64,000 nt of DNA from Geobacter sp. SVR (GTDB lineage Bacteria > Desulfobacterota > Desulfuromonadia > Geobacterales > Pseudopelobacteraceae), in assembly GCF_016865365.1 (NCBI RefSeq), contig NZ_AP024469.1:983001-1047000 (forward strand). The letters are read 5' to 3'. Shown piece after piece: positions 2,757-62,083 of the stretch. Both the position numbers and the translations under genes were made by a program. How positions within the stretch are numbered: position 1 is the stretch's first letter; the number at the start of each line of letters is the position of its first letter. The notes under the pieces were generated by a model, which did not search any database, was not told the origin of the DNA, and saw only the letters and a list, made by a program, of their open reading frames with translations.

Positions 2757-4709
2757 ATGCCCTGGATTCAAACGTACACCCCCGTAGCAGGTAGTCTCGG
2801 GATGTCGGCCCTGGTGGCCGCAATTCCGCTGGTCGTCATCTTCGTCTGTTTGGCCGTGTTGAAGATGAAGGCCCACAAGGCCGGTCCCCTGGCAGTTGCC
2901 TCGGCGATCGCCATTGCCATTGCCATATGGGGGATGCCGGCCAAGCTGGCTGGTCTGGCATTCGTGCAGGGTGCGGCTTTCGGTCTGTTCCCGGTCTTCT
3001 ATATCGTCATCACTACCCTGTTCCTCTATAACATCACCGTCAAGGGTGGCCAATTCGAGGTGATCCGGGCCTCTCTGGCCGGCGTCACCGGTGACCGCCG
3101 TATCCAGGCGCTCCTGATCGCTTTCTGTTTCGGAGCCTTTATCGAGGGGGCAGCCGGATTCGGTACCCCGGTTGCCATTGCCGGGGCGACTCTGGCTGGT
3201 CTCGGTTTCCGTCCGCTGTACGCAGCCGGTGTCTGCCTGGTGGCCAATACCGCACCGGTCGCCTTCGGCGCCATCGGGATCCCGGTCGTGGCGCTGGCCG
3301 GTGTCATGGGCTACGGCGACGACGGCATGATGAAACTCTCCACCATGGTCGGCCGCCAGCTCCCCTTTATCTCCGTCTTCATACCCTTTTACGTTATCCT
3401 GATCATGGTCGGTTTCAAGAAAACCATGGAAGTCCTGCCGGCAGTCATCGTCTGCGGGGTGACCTTCGCCGTTGTCCAATGGGCAACCGCCAGCTACCTG
3501 GGTCCCTACCTGCCGGACGTTACCGCTTCGCTGGCTTCGATCATAACTCTGGTACTGCTCCTCAAGGTCTGGCAGCCGAAAGAGAATTACGTCTTCGATC
3601 ATGAGACCGAAAGCACCGGCACCGCTACAGCCCACCATTACACGGCCGGAGAAGTTTTTCGCGCTTGGTCGCCGTACCTGGCCCTGACGATAATGGTACT
3701 TCTCTGGGGTATCCCCTCGATCAAGACGGTGCTGGATACCAAAACGGTCGAGTTCGAAGTACCCGGTCTGCACAATGCGATTGTCAAGAAGGTAAACAAG
3801 CCGGAAGATGGCCTGAAAAAGATCGCCAAGGTCAATGAAGAGATCGACAAGCAGTTAGCCACCCTGTCCCCCGCCGATCCCAAGCAGCAGGAGCTGGCCG
3901 CCAAGCTCAAGGAACTGAAAGGGCTGGAAGAGGCCTTCCAGCCGGTTGAAACGGGACTGGCCGGCAAGGGTGCGGTCCTGACCGACGAGCGCCTCAAGTC
4001 CTGCGACCTGGTTTCCAAGAAGATGGCTGAGACCAAGAAGCTTTGTGGTGAACTGGTGAAGGTCAACGCGGTCGGCAAGGACCAGCTCAAACCGCTGGAA
4101 AAGGCCGTTGCTGACCAGCTGCCGATCAAGATCGGCGCCAAGTACAAGTTCAACTTCTGGTCCGCAGCCGGCACCGCCATCCTGATCGCCGCCTTTATCT
4201 CGTCCTTGTTGTGCGGAGTCAGCATGGGTGATACCTTCCGCCTCCTGGGCAAGACCCTTTACGACATGCGCTTCCCGGCTTTAACGGTTGCTTCGGTGCT
4301 CGGCCTGGCTTACGTCATGAACACCTCGGGCATGACCAACTGCCTGGGTCTGATCTTCACCAAGACCGGCCACTGGTTCCCGCTGATCGCTCCGTTCCTG
4401 GGCTGGTTGGGCGTGTTCCTGACCGGTTCCGACACCTCCTCCAACGTACTCTTCGGCGGTCTGCAGAAGGCCACGGCAGAGCAGCTGGGGCTGAGCCCGA
4501 TTCTGACCGGTGCTGCCAACACCAGCGGCGGCGTCATGGGCAAGATGATCTCCCCGCAGTCGCTGGCAGTGGCAACCGCCGCGACCGGCATGGTGGGCGA
4601 AGAGGGCACGCTGTTCCGCTTCACTCTCAAGCATTCGCTCTTCCTGACGGTCATAGTCGGTATAATCGTTTACCTGCAGGCCTACGTACTGCAGTGGATG
4701 ATTCCCTGA
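2757..4709 (+). CDS. lldP: L-lactate permease, LctP/LldP family, with an enlarged hydrophilic loop
   Basis: Inner-membrane lactate:proton symporter that feeds the divergent lut genes. At 650 aa it is about 100 residues longer than the usual 550. Many transmembrane segments are visible, with family motifs such as EGAAGFGTPVAIAG and GSDTSSNVLFGGLQ near the C-terminus. The extra length is a lysine/glutamate/leucine-rich, probably helical segment at about residues 325-465 between membrane segments. The start at 2757 has GGAAAGGAG upstream; the open frame before it lacks a ribosome site. A strong terminator follows directly. Substrate is inferred from family and neighbours (glycolate is also transported by some members). 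Confidence 0.9.
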   Translation: MPWIQTYTPVAGSLGMSALVAAIPLVVIFVCLAVLKMKAHKAGPLAVASAIAIAIAIWGMPAKLAGLAFVQGAAFGLFPVFYIVITTLFLYNITVKGGQFEVIRASLAGVTGDRRIQALLIAFCFGAFIEGAAGFGTPVAIAGATLAGLGFRPLYAAGVCLVANTAPVAFGAIGIPVVALAGVMGYGDDGMMKLSTMVGRQLPFISVFIPFYVILIMVGFKKTMEVLPAVIVCGVTFAVVQWATASYLGPYLPDVTASLASIITLVLLLKVWQPKENYVFDHETESTGTATAHHYTAGEVFRAWSPYLALTIMVLLWGIPSIKTVLDTKTVEFEVPGLHNAIVKKVNKPEDGLKKIAKVNEEIDKQLATLSPADPKQQELAAKLKELKGLEEAFQPVETGLAGKGAVLTDERLKSCDLVSKKMAETKKLCGELVKVNAVGKDQLKPLEKAVADQLPIKIGAKYKFNFWSAAGTAILIAAFISSLLCGVSMGDTFRLLGKTLYDMRFPALTVASVLGLAYVMNTSGMTNCLGLIFTKTGHWFPLIAPFLGWLGVFLTGSDTSSNVLFGGLQKATAEQLGLSPILTGAANTSGGVMGKMISPQSLAVATAATGMVGEEGTLFRFTLKHSLFLTVIVGIIVYLQAYVLQWMIP

Positions 4710-15006: not shown

Positions 15007-15083
15007 GTCCCCGTAGCTCAGCAGGATAGAGCACTTCCCTCCTAAGGAAGGGGTCGGACGTTCGAATCGTCTCGGGGACGCCA
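15007..15083 (+). tRNA. tRNA-Arg (anticodon CCT)
   Basis: A full cloverleaf of 77 nt: acceptor GTCCCCG/CGGGGAC, D-arm GCTC...GAGC, anticodon arm CTTCC-CTCCTAA-GGAAG with anticodon CCT, T-arm GGACG-TTCGAAT-CGTCT, discriminator G and encoded CCA. The 3' half is part of a 46-bp direct repeat found again at 43638, so the gene is the integration site of island A, which rebuilds an intact 3' end. Confidence 0.96.
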
Positions 15084-42114: not shown

Positions 42115-43440
42115 TCAAGATTGACTGGCATCAGCTTGGGGTTCTGTGACTGTAACGATGCTTATCAGCTTTTGCTCCCACATTTCAAGAGCCTTCTGTT
42201 TTTCTTTGTCATAACGATACAGATTATAAACCTTAATAATTCCCTGTTTTGAGTGGTTCAGGACAGCATCAATCACTTCATCCATTTCGCCCGATTCGGC
42301 CATGAAGCTTGCAGCCGTCCGCCTAAGATCATGGGGGGTGAATGTAGTGATTCCCAGTGTAGTCAAACCATCCTCTGATTCATTGCGCTTTAATGCCTTA
42401 CTGAAAGAATGGCGCTCAATTGGCTTATCCTTTTTGAGGTGTGGGCATGGAAATATGTAGCCGCAATATTCCTTCTCCTCTGATACCTTTCTCGAAATAT
42501 TGTCTTCCCGAGCTTTTCTAGCCTCAGCTCTTTTTTGAGCTGCCTTAGCCTCCACAATGGCCTTGGCAATGATTTCACGAGCGAGGGGAGACAAATATAC
42601 TCGGTGCGCTTTCTTATTCTTCGATCTGTCGGCAGGGATAGTCCACCAGTTACCGTCAATCTCCTTGGTATGCATTCCAGAGACCTCGCCGGGCCTTTGT
42701 GCTGTTAACAGAATTAATTTGATTGCGTGGCGAACTTCAACGGTCATCGAAGCATCAGGGTTATCAAGCGAGTTCCAGAAGGTTTTGATTTCTGCTGCAC
42801 TTAGAACGCGGTCTTTTGCTGTGATTGCGGCAGGCGCCTTTACCCCAAGGCATGGGGATATTTTTAATCGATCCTTTTCGACTGCCCAATTGAACATCTT
42901 GCGGATGATCTTGAATATGTTGTTTGCGGTCTGAGGGCTGCCACGATCAACAACTTTATCCAATAGATCGTTAACGTGCCTTTTCGTTATGTCCTGAGCT
43001 TTCCTCTTTCCCCATGCGGGATAAACCTCTTTCTCAAGAATGCGCTGATCTTCCAGCCAGCTCTTTTTATTTGCCATGGCATGACGTTCAATATATTCTT
43101 CGGCAAGTTTTTTGACCGTAGGAGCAGCCTCAAGTTCGATCTTTTTATCTTCTTCAACTGTTGCCGGGTTTTTACCGCTGGCGAACACTTGCCAATGCCT
43201 TTCAAGTTCTCTTGACGCGTCGGCAAGACTCATGGTCGGATACTTCCCCAGGGGGAGAAAGCACCGCTTTCCTTCAAAGCGATAAATGAAAAACCAGCTC
43301 TTCGTGCCGGATGGGTATTTCTGGCTTGCCGGGTATACGCAAATTGCGAAGCCATGCCTGCCGTTACTCATATCTCCGTGAATATAATATTTAGAATCCC
43401 GAGGCTTCAGGTTCTTTATGGCAGTGTCAGTCAACTTCAT
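42115..43440 (-). CDS. P4-type tyrosine integrase of island A
   Basis: A 441-aa phage-integrase-family recombinase with N-terminal DUF4102-like domain (DTAIKNLKPRDSKYYI...FFIYRFEGKR..PLGKYPTMSLADA). Catalytic residues R249 (TAQRPGE), H370/R373 (FTPHDLRRTAAS), H396 (LNHSK) and Y405. It lies 198 bp from the right tRNA repeat, the standard position, and is complete, so the island may still be mobile. Confidence 0.93.
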   Translation of the reverse strand: MKLTDTAIKNLKPRDSKYYIHGDMSNGRHGFAICVYPASQKYPSGTKSWFFIYRFEGKRCFLPLGKYPTMSLADASRELERHWQVFASGKNPATVEEDKKIELEAAPTVKKLAEEYIERHAMANKKSWLEDQRILEKEVYPAWGKRKAQDITKRHVNDLLDKVVDRGSPQTANNIFKIIRKMFNWAVEKDRLKISPCLGVKAPAAITAKDRVLSAAEIKTFWNSLDNPDASMTVEVRHAIKLILLTAQRPGEVSGMHTKEIDGNWWTIPADRSKNKKAHRVYLSPLAREIIAKAIVEAKAAQKRAEARKAREDNISRKVSEEKEYCGYIFPCPHLKKDKPIERHSFSKALKRNESEDGLTTLGITTFTPHDLRRTAASFMAESGEMDEVIDAVLNHSKQGIIKVYNLYRYDKEKQKALEMWEQKLISIVTVTEPQADASQS

Positions 43441-43637: not shown

Positions 43638-43683
43638 CTCCTAAGGAAGGGGTCGGACGTTCGAATCGTCTCGGGGACGCCAA
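43638..43683. repeat. Right attachment site of island A (tRNA-Arg 3' fragment)
   Basis: An exact 46-bp copy of 15039-15084, from the anticodon loop to CCAA. It is the displaced original 3' end of the tRNA gene. Confidence 0.92.
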
Positions 43684-45245
43684 CCTTTATTGAAATTGAG
43701 TACCTCGTGAGGGGTACTCAATTTCTTTTTTTGGGCCGCAAGTTTCACAGCCCCTGCCAGCGGCACACGCCCACCCGTTATCTTCACGTGGTCCTCGTTC
43801 AACACAATCTTGCTCACGAGCAGTTGCAGTAATTCTTTGGTGGTGGAGCGCGACGTGTCCAGCAATTGCTGCCGAAGCAGCGAGCAGAACGTGGCGATCT
43901 CCGCCTTGTCGATGGAATCCGTCAGCGCTTGGGGCGATTGCTCATAGACGGCGATGCGGCTTGTTATGTCCGACTCTTGCTGCTTGAGTTTGGCCAGGTT
44001 CTCCCGGAACACATCATCCAACTCAATGCCGTTTTCGATGGCTCTATAGACATTGGCCAGCCGGAAGCGCACTGCTTCCAGCTGTTTTGTCAGGTCCGAC
44101 AGTGTTGCCCCTTTCCCATTGTTTTGTCGCCGTTCGGCCAAATGTGCCGCCACCCGTTCCGGCGTAAAGACGCGATCAGCCAGCATCTCAAGGATAGCTT
44201 GATCCAGTTTTTCCATTGGTGCCGGACGGGATGTGCATAGGTCCAGGTGTTTTTTGATGCGGGTGGAGCATTTGTAATAGTGATACAAGTTCCGTTTACC
44301 TGTTGCTGCGATCATTCGGGCGCCGCACACACCGCACTTCAGAATCGAGGTCAGCAACCGAGGGGACGACACCAGGCGGGGATGGGACATTGCCGGGCTG
44401 CGCTGCTTCAGCTTCTTTACCGCCAAATCAAACACATCCGGGTCAATGATCGCCTCGATAGTTGTCCGCACCCACTCTCCCTCTGGCTTCTCCGTGCCGC
44501 TTTTCCAGTGGATCTGATTGAAGAGCCGTTCTCCACGGTAGATAGGGTTGGTTAGGACATGATGGATCGTGGTCGTGCTCCAGGCGTGGTCCCGGCGCAG
44601 CACTTGCCGACCGTTCAGCTGTGACGCCACGCCCTTGAGCCCGCCGCTCCCCTCGATATACAGAGAGAAAATGGACCGCACCACCTCCGCCTCTTTCTGA
44701 TTCACCACCAACCGCTTTTTGGGCTTCTTGTGCCCGATGATTTCCACCTCTTCCACGTCGAAACCGAAAGGGGGCTGCGATCCATTGTGGAATCCCTGCT
44801 TGGCGTTTTCCCGCATCGCCCGCAGAGTGTGCTTCGAATTCTCCAGGCTCGAAAACTCGTCGAACATGGCGATCACCCGCCTAGTCAACTCGCCGCTGTG
44901 GTCATCGGCAGTGAGTTGAGTGATGGAGATCAGGACGACAGCGTTTTTGCGCAGTTTCCGCTCATAGCTGCACAAACTGATCTGATCGCGGAAAAACCTG
45001 GATAGGCTATGGACGATGATAGCGTCGTAGGGCCTGTGGGAGTCGCACGCTTCGCCGATCATCTCTTGGAACTCCGGGCGGCGGTCATCCATGGCACTGG
45101 CCCCCGGCTCAATGAACTCCCGCACCACTTCATATCCGTTTTGCTCACACCAAGAGCGCATGGAACTCAACTGGTCGGGGATCGACAGATCGGCCTGGGC
45201 CTGCTTCCCCGTCGACACGCGAGCGTAAAGGGCGGCTTTCTTCAT
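43641..45245 (-). CDS. Large serine recombinase
   Basis: A 534-aa site-specific recombinase: N-terminal resolvase domain with catalytic S11 in YARVSTGKQ, FSSLENSKHTLRAM helix, recombinase domain, zinc ribbon (KCGVCGARMIAATG...YYKCSTR) near residues 305-335, coiled coil, C-terminal tail. GGAAGGAGG precedes the start. The last residues (RPRDDSNVRPLP) are encoded antisense to the tRNA-Arg fragment and the stop lies in the former anticodon loop, so the gene abuts the tRNA site. Belongs to a second mobile segment adjoining island A. Confidence 0.92.
   Translation of the reverse strand: MKKAALYARVSTGKQAQADLSIPDQLSSMRSWCEQNGYEVVREFIEPGASAMDDRRPEFQEMIGEACDSHRPYDAIIVHSLSRFFRDQISLCSYERKLRKNAVVLISITQLTADDHSGELTRRVIAMFDEFSSLENSKHTLRAMRENAKQGFHNGSQPPFGFDVEEVEIIGHKKPKKRLVVNQKEAEVVRSIFSLYIEGSGGLKGVASQLNGRQVLRRDHAWSTTTIHHVLTNPIYRGERLFNQIHWKSGTEKPEGEWVRTTIEAIIDPDVFDLAVKKLKQRSPAMSHPRLVSSPRLLTSILKCGVCGARMIAATGKRNLYHYYKCSTRIKKHLDLCTSRPAPMEKLDQAILEMLADRVFTPERVAAHLAERRQNNGKGATLSDLTKQLEAVRFRLANVYRAIENGIELDDVFRENLAKLKQQESDITSRIAVYEQSPQALTDSIDKAEIATFCSLLRQQLLDTSRSTTKELLQLLVSKIVLNEDHVKITGGRVPLAGAVKLAAQKKKLSTPHEVLNFNKGWRPRDDSNVRPLP
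43693..43732 (+). terminator. Original terminator of tRNA-Arg, displaced
   Basis: AAATTGAGTACC and GGTACTCAATTT form a 12-bp stem with an 8-nt loop, then TTTTTTT. It lies right after the attR copy and so was presumably downstream of the tRNA before the island arrived. It overlaps the 3' coding end of the convergent serine recombinase. Confidence 0.8.
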
Positions 45246-46719: not shown

Positions 46720-46777
46720 CTATATATACGTTTAAATCCCTTCAATTGCCAGCCATCTTGTGCTGGGAGGGATGTGC

Positions 46778-47098
46778 ATGCAGACGGTAAATGAGATGTT
46801 GGGGCTACGGATTCGGGAGCAACGAAAAAGAAAGGGCCTGAATCAGGAACAACTGGCGGAAAAACTTGGGATTGACCAAAAACATATGAGCAAAATCGAG
46901 CTCGGGAAAAGCTATCCTTCCCTCGATAGGCTGATTAGAATAAGCGAAGTACTGCAAGTTCCTTTGCCCCGCCTCTTCGAGTTTCAGCACTTGGCCGATG
47001 CTGGAGATTTAGAAAAACAGATCTGTGACATGGTACAGATGCTGAGCGAAACCGATCAGCGTCGGCTATACAAAATCGTGAAGGCGTTTTTGGACTGA
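46778..47098 (+). CDS. XRE-family HTH regulator (paralogue of 17923)
   Basis: A 106-aa regulator with the helix-turn-helix at about residues 9-64 (LGLRIREQRKRKGLNQEQLAEKLGIDQKHMSKIELGKSYPS) and the same LQVPLPRLFEFQHLAD linker as its paralogue in island A. Start at 46778 chosen with GGGAGGG at 6 bases; the upstream GTG frame lacks a site. Probably controls segment B genes. Confidence 0.85.
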   Translation: MQTVNEMLGLRIREQRKRKGLNQEQLAEKLGIDQKHMSKIELGKSYPSLDRLIRISEVLQVPLPRLFEFQHLADAGDLEKQICDMVQMLSETDQRRLYKIVKAFLD

Positions 47099-47954
47099 AT
47101 GTTCCCCCCGCAAAGTCCCTAACAGCCTCTATTCAAAGGCAGTATCTTCAGCCAACGCAAACGTTCTCCAAAACCTCAGCAGTTCAGGTGGTTGGCTGCG
47201 GTGGCATCATATTTCCCCATTGTTGTCAATAGTGAAAGCAGCGATATATTATATAGTTATGTAAAAAACCGCTGGACATTCCCCCTTGGGCATGGTATCC
47301 ATCATGCATCTCCATCTATCCCGAAAGGGAACTGCCGCTTGCGGCATCCAGCCTGTCTCCAGGCTTCCAAGTTCTCGTTTAGTACGTTCATCTTGAACGC
47401 AAGGTGTTACTTTATCCGATGATCCCCTGTCAGGCGCCTTAAGCGCTTGGACTCCTCCGACTCACCTGTCCTCCATTTTTCGCATCTACCATCTCAGCGC
47501 AGGAAATGTTTTGATGTGGATTTGGGGCGTCTCTTGATTCAAGCCGTAAGGCTTAGCAGAAGACGAACCCCGTTCGCCCTTGTCCGCCGCGCACTGGACG
47601 ACTTCTTCCGCATTCAGATAGATCGTGGCGATCTCAAAGACGAATGAAAACGGCACCTCGACGGTGCCGTTTCATGGCTTTTCATAGCTTGTTCAGGTAT
47701 TCGAAGGTGGACGCTGCCCTTTCTCATGAAGTTCAAATTTTTTCTCGTTAGTAAAACTCCCTCTTGATTATCGATATAAATAGGTATTTATTTCAGTAAG
47801 ATACAGAATCGCGAACTTATATATAAGAATTTGGTCGCGAAGCGTCCATGCAGTGGTTGTATTTGGGTGCGCAGCACCCATGCCTTGAATTCAGTCTTCT
47901 TGGTTTTTGATGATAAAGGGTCTTCCCGCCTGAAGCATTTAATCCCTTGCTAAC
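47099..47954. other. Noncoding stretch before the structured RNA
   Basis: Includes a low-confidence frame (47447-47647), a hairpin AAACGGCACC/GGTGCCGTTT (47648-47672) without a good T-run, and TGGGTGC-GCA-GCACCCA (47864-47880). The AT-rich part around 47740-47810 may contain a promoter, but no well-spaced boxes were found. Confidence 0.4.
47447..47647 (+). CDS. Doubtful small ORF
   Basis: 66 codons from a TTG without a ribosome site; the second half (VDLGRLLIQAVRLSRRRTPF, RRALDDFFRIQID) reads like genuine protein, so this may be the end of a lost gene. A hairpin follows the stop directly. Confidence 0.25.
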   Translation: MDSSDSPVLHFSHLPSQRRKCFDVDLGRLLIQAVRLSRRRTPFALVRRALDDFFRIQIDRGDLKDE

Positions 47955-48702
47955 AAAATGTGTGTGTACAGCCACAATCACCCGGATCTAGCCAATCAGG
48001 GAAAAGATGTGGTGCATGGTCGTTACTACCGGGTTGCCAACCTGGCACATAGACCATGCGGGTGTCGCGCAGTGCAACGAGAGTTGCTCGCTGCGTGGCG
48101 ATGGGGGCTGTCCTCTGTAATGGGGGCTTCTACCCACTGGTAAAGCTGTGTCTGGGCGACGCGGAAATTGTGCCTCGGCGGCTAGTTCGAGGTGCACGAC
48201 ATATGCGAAGCGGTGTAAATCCGCTCTGCGGGACGTGGGTAACCACGTAACGCCAGACCTGGCGGGGGAGCTTGAAATAAGTAATTATTTCAAGTAAATA
48301 GCTCAACCCGTTAAGGCCCGTGCCAATGCTGCACGGCCAAAGCGCCCATGAGGGTGCAACCAGGTGAGACGACAGGAAGAGGTTAGGCCAAACCGCGATG
48401 AAATTCACGAGTATCCCAAATTTGCCGGGATTGTCGGCAAAAAGTAAGGGGGGACTTCCAGATTCGCCCCCGTGCCTCGCGGCACACAATCGTGAATGGA
48501 GCAGCCTGATCCTGCCGTTGACGCATATGTCTAACGCGGAAAAGACCGACCGGGTCATCGAAAGATGGCTGCGAGGTCTGATTAGCGCGAATCAGTACCT
48601 TTGAAGGGAACGGGCAGGGCAGTCCGTTCCCGTTGTCCTGCCGAGTGGCATCGGCAGCAGTAAGGACGAGGGAAAGTTCGCACCTTTGTACACACATGTT
48701 TT
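47955..48702 (+). ncRNA. Candidate large structured RNA (about 748 nt), apparently undescribed
   Basis: The ends pair in one continuous 16-bp helix: 47955-47970 (AAAATGTGTGTGTACA) with 48687-48702 (TGTACACACATGTTTT), including two G-U pairs that exist only in the plus-strand RNA. Inside lie many perfect helices: 48014-48021/48052-48059; 48169-48177/48188-48196 (two G-U); 48233-48238/48243-48248 with a GUAA loop; 48268-48304 enclosing a 9-bp stem with GUAA; 48403-48410/48490-48497 (8 bp, long range); 48422-48427/48435-48440; 48472-48476/48481-48485; 48578-48583/48590-48595; 48606-48613/48624-48631; 48639-48644/48651-48656. No convincing reading frame spans it. No group II domain V or reverse transcriptase seen. 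The layout recalls ornate large RNAs such as GOLLD, ROOL or OLE, but I do not recognise the sequence. Confidence 0.6.
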
Positions 48703-48821
48703 GGGGCTTGGCCGCCCCTCCGTGTCCGCGAGCCGCTTGGTTCGTGAATAGGGAGGTGCGGCCTAACTTGGGCCGGAAGGCTCACGTCGACCGTGCCGCA
48801 TTCCAACCGGGAGGTGATGGT

Positions 48822-49490
48822 ATGCGGTATCAAGCGGCAGACTGGCAGGGATACGTACAACAGATTGTTAATTTGATGGGACACGGATATCAGGATTACT
48901 GTCTCGTCAAACTGCCAATGAAGAAACAGGCGGAATGGGGGACAATTGACCAGAGAATCGCGGGGAAGTACTGTGCTGATTTGGGGAAGGACAAACGGTA
49001 CCGGCGGCAGTTGAAAGGACTGGCGAACTATGCGTATCTACGGTGGGAAGATGCCGCCGTGATTCTACGTACGAATGGCGAGCCATTGCCAACCACGGAC
49101 CGCTTTGTATCTCTCCACGATAAACCGTTACAAGTCCGCGTTGGGGAATCAACCGTCCTTAAAGTCGTCCCGGCATCACACAAGGGGCGCAAGGTCACGG
49201 TGTACCTCGCTAAGGACAAGTATCGGGAAATCAAGGCCGGACTTCTGGATAACGTTCGACATCGGCAACTGGATGTCCTGCATGGAGCGTTCTCGCGCCT
49301 TGACGGTTTACCACCATACGCCGGTATCGTGCGCCAGAAGGCAGAGCTTGTAACGGCCATAGTTTTGGAAGGCAAGCGTCATGGTCTGAAACTGTGCCGC
49401 AAGGATTTTCCGTTTCGGACCAAGCGTCGCAATAAGCCGGTGTTTGCCGAAGATCAATGTGGCCAGGCACAAGCTTCCGCCGGCACATGA
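48822..49490 (+). CDS. Orphan protein downstream of the structured RNA
   Basis: A 222-aa basic protein (MRYQAADWQGYVQQIVNLMGHG...). The C-terminal third is rich in K/R (FPFRTKRRNKPVF), which would suit nucleic-acid binding. GGAGGTG lies 5 bases before the ATG at 48822; the longer frame from 48633 would read through the RNA's 3' helix. It begins 120 nt after the RNA and lies on the same strand, so the two may be one RNA-protein unit. No RuvC, HNH, LAGLIDADG or RT motif seen. Function unknown. Confidence 0.65.
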   Translation: MRYQAADWQGYVQQIVNLMGHGYQDYCLVKLPMKKQAEWGTIDQRIAGKYCADLGKDKRYRRQLKGLANYAYLRWEDAAVILRTNGEPLPTTDRFVSLHDKPLQVRVGESTVLKVVPASHKGRKVTVYLAKDKYREIKAGLLDNVRHRQLDVLHGAFSRLDGLPPYAGIVRQKAELVTAIVLEGKRHGLKLCRKDFPFRTKRRNKPVFAEDQCGQAQASAGT

Positions 49491-61272: not shown

Positions 61273-61310
61273 CCGGACAGGGGAATGGTTCCAGAGGGAA
61301 AAACCGCTGT

Positions 61311-61452
61311 CCTATCCTCTTTCATCCGGACTGTACCGTCGGCTCCGGCATTTCACCGGATCTGCTGGCCTTTCCCATACCGGGAAAGCGCTTGCGGGCT
61401 CTCCGGCGCACGCCGGAATACCGCCGGTGGGGAATTGCACCCCGCCCCGAGG
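61311..61452 (-). promoter_or_regulatory. FMN riboswitch (RFN element)
   Basis: Minus-strand RNA contains the conserved RFN blocks in order: CGGGGCGGGGTGCAATTCCC, ACCGGCGGTATT, GCCCGCAAGCG, GGCCAGCAGATCCGGTG, AATGCCGGAGCCGACGGT, ACAGTCCGGATGAAAGAGGA. Senses FMN and represses ribB. Confidence 0.95.
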
Positions 61453-62083
61453 ATAAGTAGCCCCATCTATAGATGAACCGCATGAAGCTGTCAAGCAGCC
61501 GCTCTGAAAGAGCACGGCGGATCGGATGGAAAGCGGGGTGTCAACGCCTAGGGTAACTTGCCAAATCAACGCCTGAGAACAAGATTCGGCTGAGAAGAAA
61601 GGAGTCCTTGGAGAGTAGCAAGAATCAACGGCCGTTGACGGATGTTCAGCCGGACTTTGTTTTTCTGAAACGAGAGTTGGCACATCAAGATATCGGCAGG
61701 GCTAAGGCTAAGTGGCGGGGATCGGTATGGCAAGATTTGCTTGTTCGTTGTCATTGCATGGGAGACAGTGATCTGCCAATATCCTAGATAATTTACTTAT
61801 CTGGGACAGCCCCAAATAAAATGACCTCGCCGCCCCCTCAGCCAAGAACTGCTGCAGCAGCTACCACATTCCTGATTCCGCTCCGAGTAAAAAGCGCTCT
61901 CGTCTCCTAATACCTGTCACTACTCAAAGTAATATTTTTCCAGCCGTCAAATTTCAACATCAACTACTATAGTTGTTTTTGCAGTCTCTCAGTAACCACG
62001 TATCCGTTGCCGTGGCATATATCACATCATCCATGCCCCGGAGGGGGGTGTCAGCATGTGGGGTATGGAACGTTGAGCCGAAA
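61453..62083. other. Noncoding stretch upstream of ribB
   Basis: Contains the ribB promoter region. A plus-strand frame without start (about 61590-61785; FVFLKRELAHQDIGRAKAKWRG) might be gene debris. CCATGCCCC and GGGGTATGG (about 62031-62068) can pair. Nothing else supported. Confidence 0.35.

Follow-up and report, generated by a model that had tools for sequence, protein, structure and literature searches.

The region at positions 47954-48703 on the plus strand is almost certainly a circularly permuted (CP) group II ribozyme. Positions refer to the window, which is the whole stretch of 64,000 nucleotides from Geobacter sp. SVR that was analysed. The gene that follows at 48822-49490 is very probably acpG, the published partner gene of this ribozyme class. 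We consider it probable that the whole locus is explained by a CP group II RNA paired with acpG, with AcpG as a derived maturase. The class was described by Roth et al. 2021 (PMC8637638) as a 'T-large' RNA. The main text of that paper gives the domain order D5-D6-D1-D2-D3-D4, the splice sites NU and GGGCG, and circles of 15-86 nt. It names acpG as the partner gene, with no function assigned to it and no homology of AcpG to any known protein class. It also reports that the RNA reacts in vitro without protein, that some genomes with the RNA have no acpG, and that RNA and acpG are divergent at many loci. The element in the window is an ordinary but good member of this known, poorly understood class. 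The RNA class and its partner gene were already known, and the RT/maturase-like fold of AcpG is the new proposal made here. No statement that AcpG is RT-like was found in the literature covered, with subscription journals and preprints mostly outside the scope of the search. No other paper devoted to the CP group II class or to AcpG was found there; a reference passage is in PMC10085705.

The region had been noticed as a large, ornate RNA with paired ends, and the main observations behind this reading were reproduced. The 16 terminal pairs claimed in the first-pass annotation (14 Watson-Crick and two G-U) are present, and the helix in fact extends to 18 bp. At least ten perfect hairpins had been claimed. 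We counted 15 non-overlapping hairpins of at least 6 bp, compared with a mean of 9.0 in shuffled sequences, and a count of 15 was reached in one of 200 shuffles. GUAA loops were seen on two perfect hairpins, as had been described. The region also holds no credible gene: its internal ORFs (minus-strand frames of 142 and 104 aa, for example) look fortuitous, and no ORF for an intron-encoded protein was found inside the element. Both strands folded better than 20 of 20 shuffles, with z values of -8.2 for the plus strand and -8.4 for the minus strand. The folding energy was lower for the plus strand (-335 kcal/mol) than for the minus strand (-296.5 kcal/mol). The strand was not settled by energy alone, because both strands folded far below their shuffles. 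It was settled as plus by the homologues and by the identity of D5 and D6. Homologues and compensatory changes support an RNA that is structured, large and ornate, lies on the plus strand and belongs to a mobile segment, as had been described.

The proposed novelty of the RNA did not survive. The region had been likened to GOLLD, ROOL and OLE RNAs, and a previously undescribed class of large non-coding RNAs like these would agree with its size, its ornate folding, its mobile setting and the blank in Rfam. The Rfam search that had been proposed (Rfam 15) gave no match at gathering thresholds, nor any up to E = 1 in 47700-48850, and the GOLLD, ROOL and OLE models likewise gave no match to the region in 47700-48850 up to E = 1. 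However, the group II ribozyme elements D5, D6, EBS1, delta and the splice-site motifs are found in the region in CP order, and acpG, known as the partner gene of this class, adjoins the RNA. A group II intron match, named beforehand as a finding against a new RNA, was obtained. The region belongs to the published CP group II class, and a new class is practically untenable. The earlier reading also missed the link to the gene directly downstream, acpG, which belongs to the RNA.

The planctomycete copy of the element matched the Rfam group II intron model over D5-D6 (L012:2620-2725). This match comes first in the element, 5' of all the rest, and the CP group II class was therefore suspected. 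In the window, D5 and D6 are placed 5' of D1, and all features described below are on the plus strand. D5 was located at 48064-48099 by profile and covariation. It has the triad CGC at 48066-48068, a GAGA tetraloop and a 2-nt bulge, with five pairs between the triad and the bulge (columns 3-7 with 27-31; bulge columns 25-26). D6 was located at 48100-48138 by alignment and covariation. It contains the bulged branch-point A48132, and this column (101) is A in 30 of 30 rows. The reversed internal splice sites NU ... GGGCG are present with a short linker between them. The 3' splice site is predicted after 48138, and it is followed by the predicted 15-nt circle of joined exons at 48139-48153, with IBS1 at its 3' end. 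The predicted 5' splice site GGGCG is at 48154-48158, where domain I starts. By the column scan, a terminal loop of domain I holds delta (C48459) and, directly after it, EBS1 (48460-48465).

The AGC triad of the published D5 consensus was not found in the window, which has CGC instead. Over the 30 places compared, the triad was AGC in 18, CGC in 10, AGT in one and GGC in one. CGC was treated as a variation within the class and not as a ground for exclusion, because the other CGC copies are the same element beside acpG. The CGC triad could also be taken as a sign of a decayed, inactive CP group II remnant, and the element is single-copy in its own 4.7-Mb genome, which would fit such decay. However, the D5/D6 pairs, the branch A, both splice sites and the EBS1 and delta pairings are all intact, and pairing is kept among the copies with CGC. 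We judged a decayed remnant to be very unlikely. GIIM and RVT_1 models gave no match anywhere in the genome of the window, so no RT able to move the RNA in trans was found there.

A D5-D6-5'SS profile was built from a seed of four sequences, namely, the window, two related genomes (G029 and G091) and Planococcus. It identified 32 places in the 51 sequences searched. The copy on pPNAP05, a plasmid of Roth et al., was matched with E = 3.1e-16 when pPNAP05 was left out of the profile, and with E = 7.6e-5 when the four-sequence seed was used alone. The published pTT8 RNA scored only E = 0.95 at the right place, and pTT8 counts against the class call. The compensatory changes that the first-pass annotation had proposed to look for were observed in D5 and D6 across 30 sequences. 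This set comprised 30 of the 32 places and left out L054, which is partial, and L048, which nearly duplicates L049. The 23 proposed pairs gave 673 cells, and 96.9% of these were paired. The controls gave 42.8-49.3% for slid versions and 70.0% for shuffles. Changes on both sides were found in 18 of the 23 pairs. Just below the invariant bulged A of D6, the pair changed between G-U and C-G (19 and 11 sequences).

The test of EBS1 and delta covered 11 of the 32 places, which form the window group. IBS1 and EBS1 were complementary at 53 of 66 positions at the best of 383 columns, and the next column reached 42. At the same best column of 383, delta and delta' formed a Watson-Crick pair in 10 of 11 sequences, and the next column reached eight. 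In the window itself the EBS1-IBS1 pairing is modest, with five of six positions paired and four of these contiguous, and the delta pair is C48459-G48139. In an alignment of 19 sequences, column 459 was richest in perfect complements (5/19), mostly from the plasmid group; for the window group of 11, EBS1 is indicated at column 527. This group was picked after the 19-sequence table had been seen, and its permutation p-values of 0.0001 and 0.0018 are uncorrected for that choice. The scan over 383 columns is a fairer control than these p-values. A candidate EBS1 further upstream, AGAC/AGAU, was dropped; the column scan picked another loop. The predicted circles measured 12-24 nt across the 11 sequences.

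The element was compared with the CP group II RNAs in the main text of PMC8637638. It was alike in domain order, in D5/D6 anatomy, in the NU and GGGCG splice sites, in EBS1 and delta, in the acpG neighbour and in the plasmid or mobile setting. It differed in the triad, which is CGC in the window and AGC in the published consensus, and in length, which is about 750 nt compared with about 900. The predicted circle is 15 nt in the window, 14 nt in L008 and L024, and 12 nt in L009, whereas the published circles are 15-86 nt. In addition, the helix that closes the ends in the window is not mentioned in that main text.

This closing helix is 18 bp long, with its 5' strand at 47954-47971 and its 3' strand at 48686-48703. 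In the outer 200-nt ends, 18 bp was reached in 0 of 500 dinucleotide shuffles and at least 16 bp in three of 500. The helix joins the region before D5 with the region after D3, which is the place of D4. It would thus occupy the topological place of domain IV, and D4 is inferred to contain the natural permutation point. A helix between the part upstream of D5 and the 3' part was testable at 29 places. It was reached by at most seven of 200 shuffles at 10 of them, and the other 19 had no significant closing helix by this simple test. In the window, L049, L014, L018, L025 and L047, the helix was located at about -99 to -120 from D5, its sequences being unrelated. The other four significant helices were elsewhere, at -36, -54, -83 and -185 from D5. 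L009 and L040 had 12 and 14 bp at about the place of the window's helix, which was below significance.

The acpG gene (48822-49490, plus strand) encodes 222 aa with a predicted RT palm-thumb fold without the catalytic DD. A Shine-Dalgarno-like GGGAGGTGAT was read from the sequence before it at 48809-48818 on the plus strand. The first-round AcpG profile, built without pTT8 or pPNAP05, matched the pPNAP05 protein with E = 1.8e-18, and the match to the pTT8 AcpG was weaker (E = 0.011). The protein resembles the published AcpG (TTHC007 family), as described in the main text of PMC8637638, in this profile match and in its place beside the RNA; it is 222 aa long, compared with about 260 for the published protein. 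The gene starts 118 nt past the end of the RNA on the same strand, and this arrangement would suit a cis-acting leader that regulates acpG. However, the same-strand order was found in the window's group, whereas RNA and acpG are divergent in the E. coli plasmids and in several others (for example, L014, L047-L049, L055, L056 and L058). The RNA is therefore not merely a leader, and a leader function as its explanation is highly improbable.

The CP group II RNA and acpG were followed in other genomes. Similar DNA was found in three of 147 genomes, namely, the own genome, G029 and G091. The DNA identity of the RNA was 72% over 630 nt in G029 and 68% over about 250 nt in G091. A relative of the protein of 48822-49490 was encoded in the same three genomes only, with identities of 52% and 37%. 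A plasmid protein search with AcpG gave Planococcus, planctomycete, Calothrix and E. coli plasmids (13 records). In these four kinds (L011-L014), 1.3-1.7 kb without annotated genes lie directly upstream of acpG. The RNA profile matched 16 of the 18 tested plasmids that had been fetched by protein alone. The other two, from Gluconobacter and Novacetimonas (L050 and L051), have an acpG homologue and no recognised CP group II RNA in the stretch examined. On the Calothrix plasmid, one acpG is preceded by two D5-D6 copies (L013:641-769 and 2792-2911), which share a strand and are separated by about 2.1 kb.

A scan of 84,980 species' genomes with an RNA-only pattern gave 23 matches, and 12 of these fit the RNA profile. 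acpG was found with nine of the 12, one of them a fragment. For the remaining three (L027, L030 and L037), the DNA examined ends about 300 nt or less past the 3' side of the match. The other 11 genome matches and five viral-contig matches failed the RNA profile at E 0.02 and were rejected as chance. Seven Bacteroidota contigs (L021, L023, L032-L035 and L042) fit the RNA pattern with an identical 31-base spacing and did not fit the RNA profile; these matches are perhaps a conserved coding stretch. Of 5,426 complete E. coli genomes, 21 were positive, at 23 places in all, each of them on a plasmid. No acpG was confirmed in IMG/VR viral contigs and none was found in phage records, and blastn found no RNA in plasmids and phages. 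In a sample of the phylum, acpG was found in the own genome only (1/395). With members in Cyanobacteriota, Planctomycetota and also a Nitrospirota MAG, the class extends past the phyla of the main text of PMC8637638.

The fold of AcpG was examined with predicted structures. The first AF2 model was made with nine sequences and had a pLDDT of 86.5 and a pTM of 0.80. In a Foldseek search of the PDB, its top two matches were chain D of group II intron RNPs with probabilities of 0.99 and 0.69; the E-values were weak (0.02 and 0.044). With VIA-align, the best five matches were all to group II intron proteins, with Z 9.7-9.1 and 179-187 residues aligned, covering 1-218 of the model, and retron RTs were near Z 7. 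A second AF2 model, that of the Salirhabdus AcpG, had a pLDDT of 84.1, and the other four of the series had 62.4-47.2. The six sequences of the Salirhabdus model were also in the first alignment, and the two models are not independent. With VIA-align, its three highest matches were again group II intron proteins (Z 9.4-9.0, 190-201 residues). Foldseek did not have group II intron proteins among the top 50 for this model. In 8t2s, the match begins near residue 107, which suggests that the fingers are missing from AcpG as modelled.

In addition, the AcpG sequences were compared with group II proteins. The alignment comprised 27 of 31 acpG matches and left out the L025 fragment, L029, L041 and L051. 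The acpG genes of L015 and L016 (further E. coli plasmids), those of the L029 type and fragments were kept out of the alignments. In hhalign, the 27 AcpGs were aligned with 14 group II proteins from the same order, with LRWED on RYADD and onward into the thumb. The core score of AcpG against IEP was 28.3. With shuffling, it never exceeded 22.6 (columns, 300 shuffles) or 25.7 (blocks, 300 shuffles). The catalytic DD was present in one of the 27 aligned AcpGs (YIDD in L056), and the window reads WEDA. Judged by this motif, AcpG should not synthesise DNA, because DD is found in only one of the 27. In L056, which is the Paraphotobacterium plasmid p1, acpG at 3905-4627 has YIDD exactly at the YADD position of group II RTs. 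In this AcpG the catalytic motif may have been kept, or the resemblance may be a coincidence.

HMM searches of AcpG reached no RT family (RVT_1, GIIM) and no RT structure, so AcpG was classed as a likely IEP derivative rather than as an IEP. A BFVD fold search gave nothing telling, and a PDB sequence search gave chance-level matches only. In NCBIfam, PHROGs and PADLOC, no family was matched by more than one of eight AcpG members; a PADLOC match to Cas11a (E = 0.00018) in one of the eight was taken as chance. The weak Foldseek E-values and the HMM result would also be expected if AcpG were not derived from an RT and the fold match were a coincidence of a common alpha/beta arrangement. AcpG would then be, for example, a regulator or a plasmid-maintenance protein. 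Designed helical repeats score Z 8-9 by matching just the thumb helices, which is in line with such a coincidence. However, the match is near full length with group II proteins on top for both models, and the profile-profile register on the YADD hairpin is independent of them. We consider a coincidental fold match unlikely, at a level that still deserves attention.

The models thus incline us, with moderate confidence, to read AcpG as a miniature, catalytically dead descendant of a group II intron RT turned dedicated maturase. Compared with group II IEPs or maturases (8h2h, 8t2s, 8t2r, 8fli and 6me0), AcpG is predicted to have a palm and a thumb that follow one another as they do in those proteins, and its modelled hairpin is in place of the YADD hairpin. 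In contrast, it is without the fingers, the catalytic DD and an RT family match, and it is a separate gene outside the ribozyme. The RT-like domain of Prp8 (4i43) is alike in the RT palm-thumb fold predicted for AcpG and was listed for both AcpG models, with Z values of 7.3 for the first and 6.6 for the second, below the telling level of VIA-align. Prp8 differs as a much larger protein of the spliceosome.

The proposed mechanism is as follows. D5, D6, the 15-nt exon, D1 and the further domains would be arranged in this order, with the ends zipped by the 18-bp helix at the place of domain IV. A48132 would attack the bond before G48154, with chemistry as in other members (Roth et al.). The freed 3' end of the exon would then attack after U48138, and the products would be a 15-nt circle and a T-shaped branched RNA. 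The splice sites in the window were inferred from motifs and covariation. AcpG would be a shrunken group II intron-encoded RT in which the palm and thumb were kept and the fingers and catalytic aspartates were lost. As a dedicated maturase, it might hold the permuted ribozyme in its active fold, and the models lean, somewhat tentatively, towards this role. AcpG may also be dispensable, or may have another job, because, according to the main text of PMC8637638, the RNA reacts in vitro when protein is absent, and acpG is missing from some genomes that have the RNA. If AcpG is a dead RT or maturase, RNA and protein would form one ribonucleoprotein. The CP element would then be a stripped, non-retromobile RNP in which a dead RT palm-thumb cradles the group II active site. 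It would mirror Prp8 and the spliceosome in bacteria, and would be a natural bacterial case of an RT shrunk to a ribozyme-holding scaffold. The RT domain of Prp8 is dead and cradles the RNA core of the spliceosome, and the shrinking of an RT to a scaffold is the route long proposed for Prp8.

The surroundings of the RNA were also examined. Just upstream of the RNA, a tyrosine integrase (42115-43440) adjoins a large serine recombinase (43641-45245), both on the minus strand, and this pair supports a mobile segment. The claimed nearness to a tRNA is weak: the sole tRNA found in the window (15007-15083) is 33 kb off. In the relative G029, a tRNA is directly behind the integrase (L008:9942-10013). 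A gene for an XRE-type HTH regulator is upstream of the RNA both in the window (46760-47098) and in G029 (L008:5086-5415), and it may be part of the same mobile unit as the RNA. Elsewhere in the window, an FMN riboswitch was found at 61310-61458 on the minus strand (Rfam RF00050, 117 bits).
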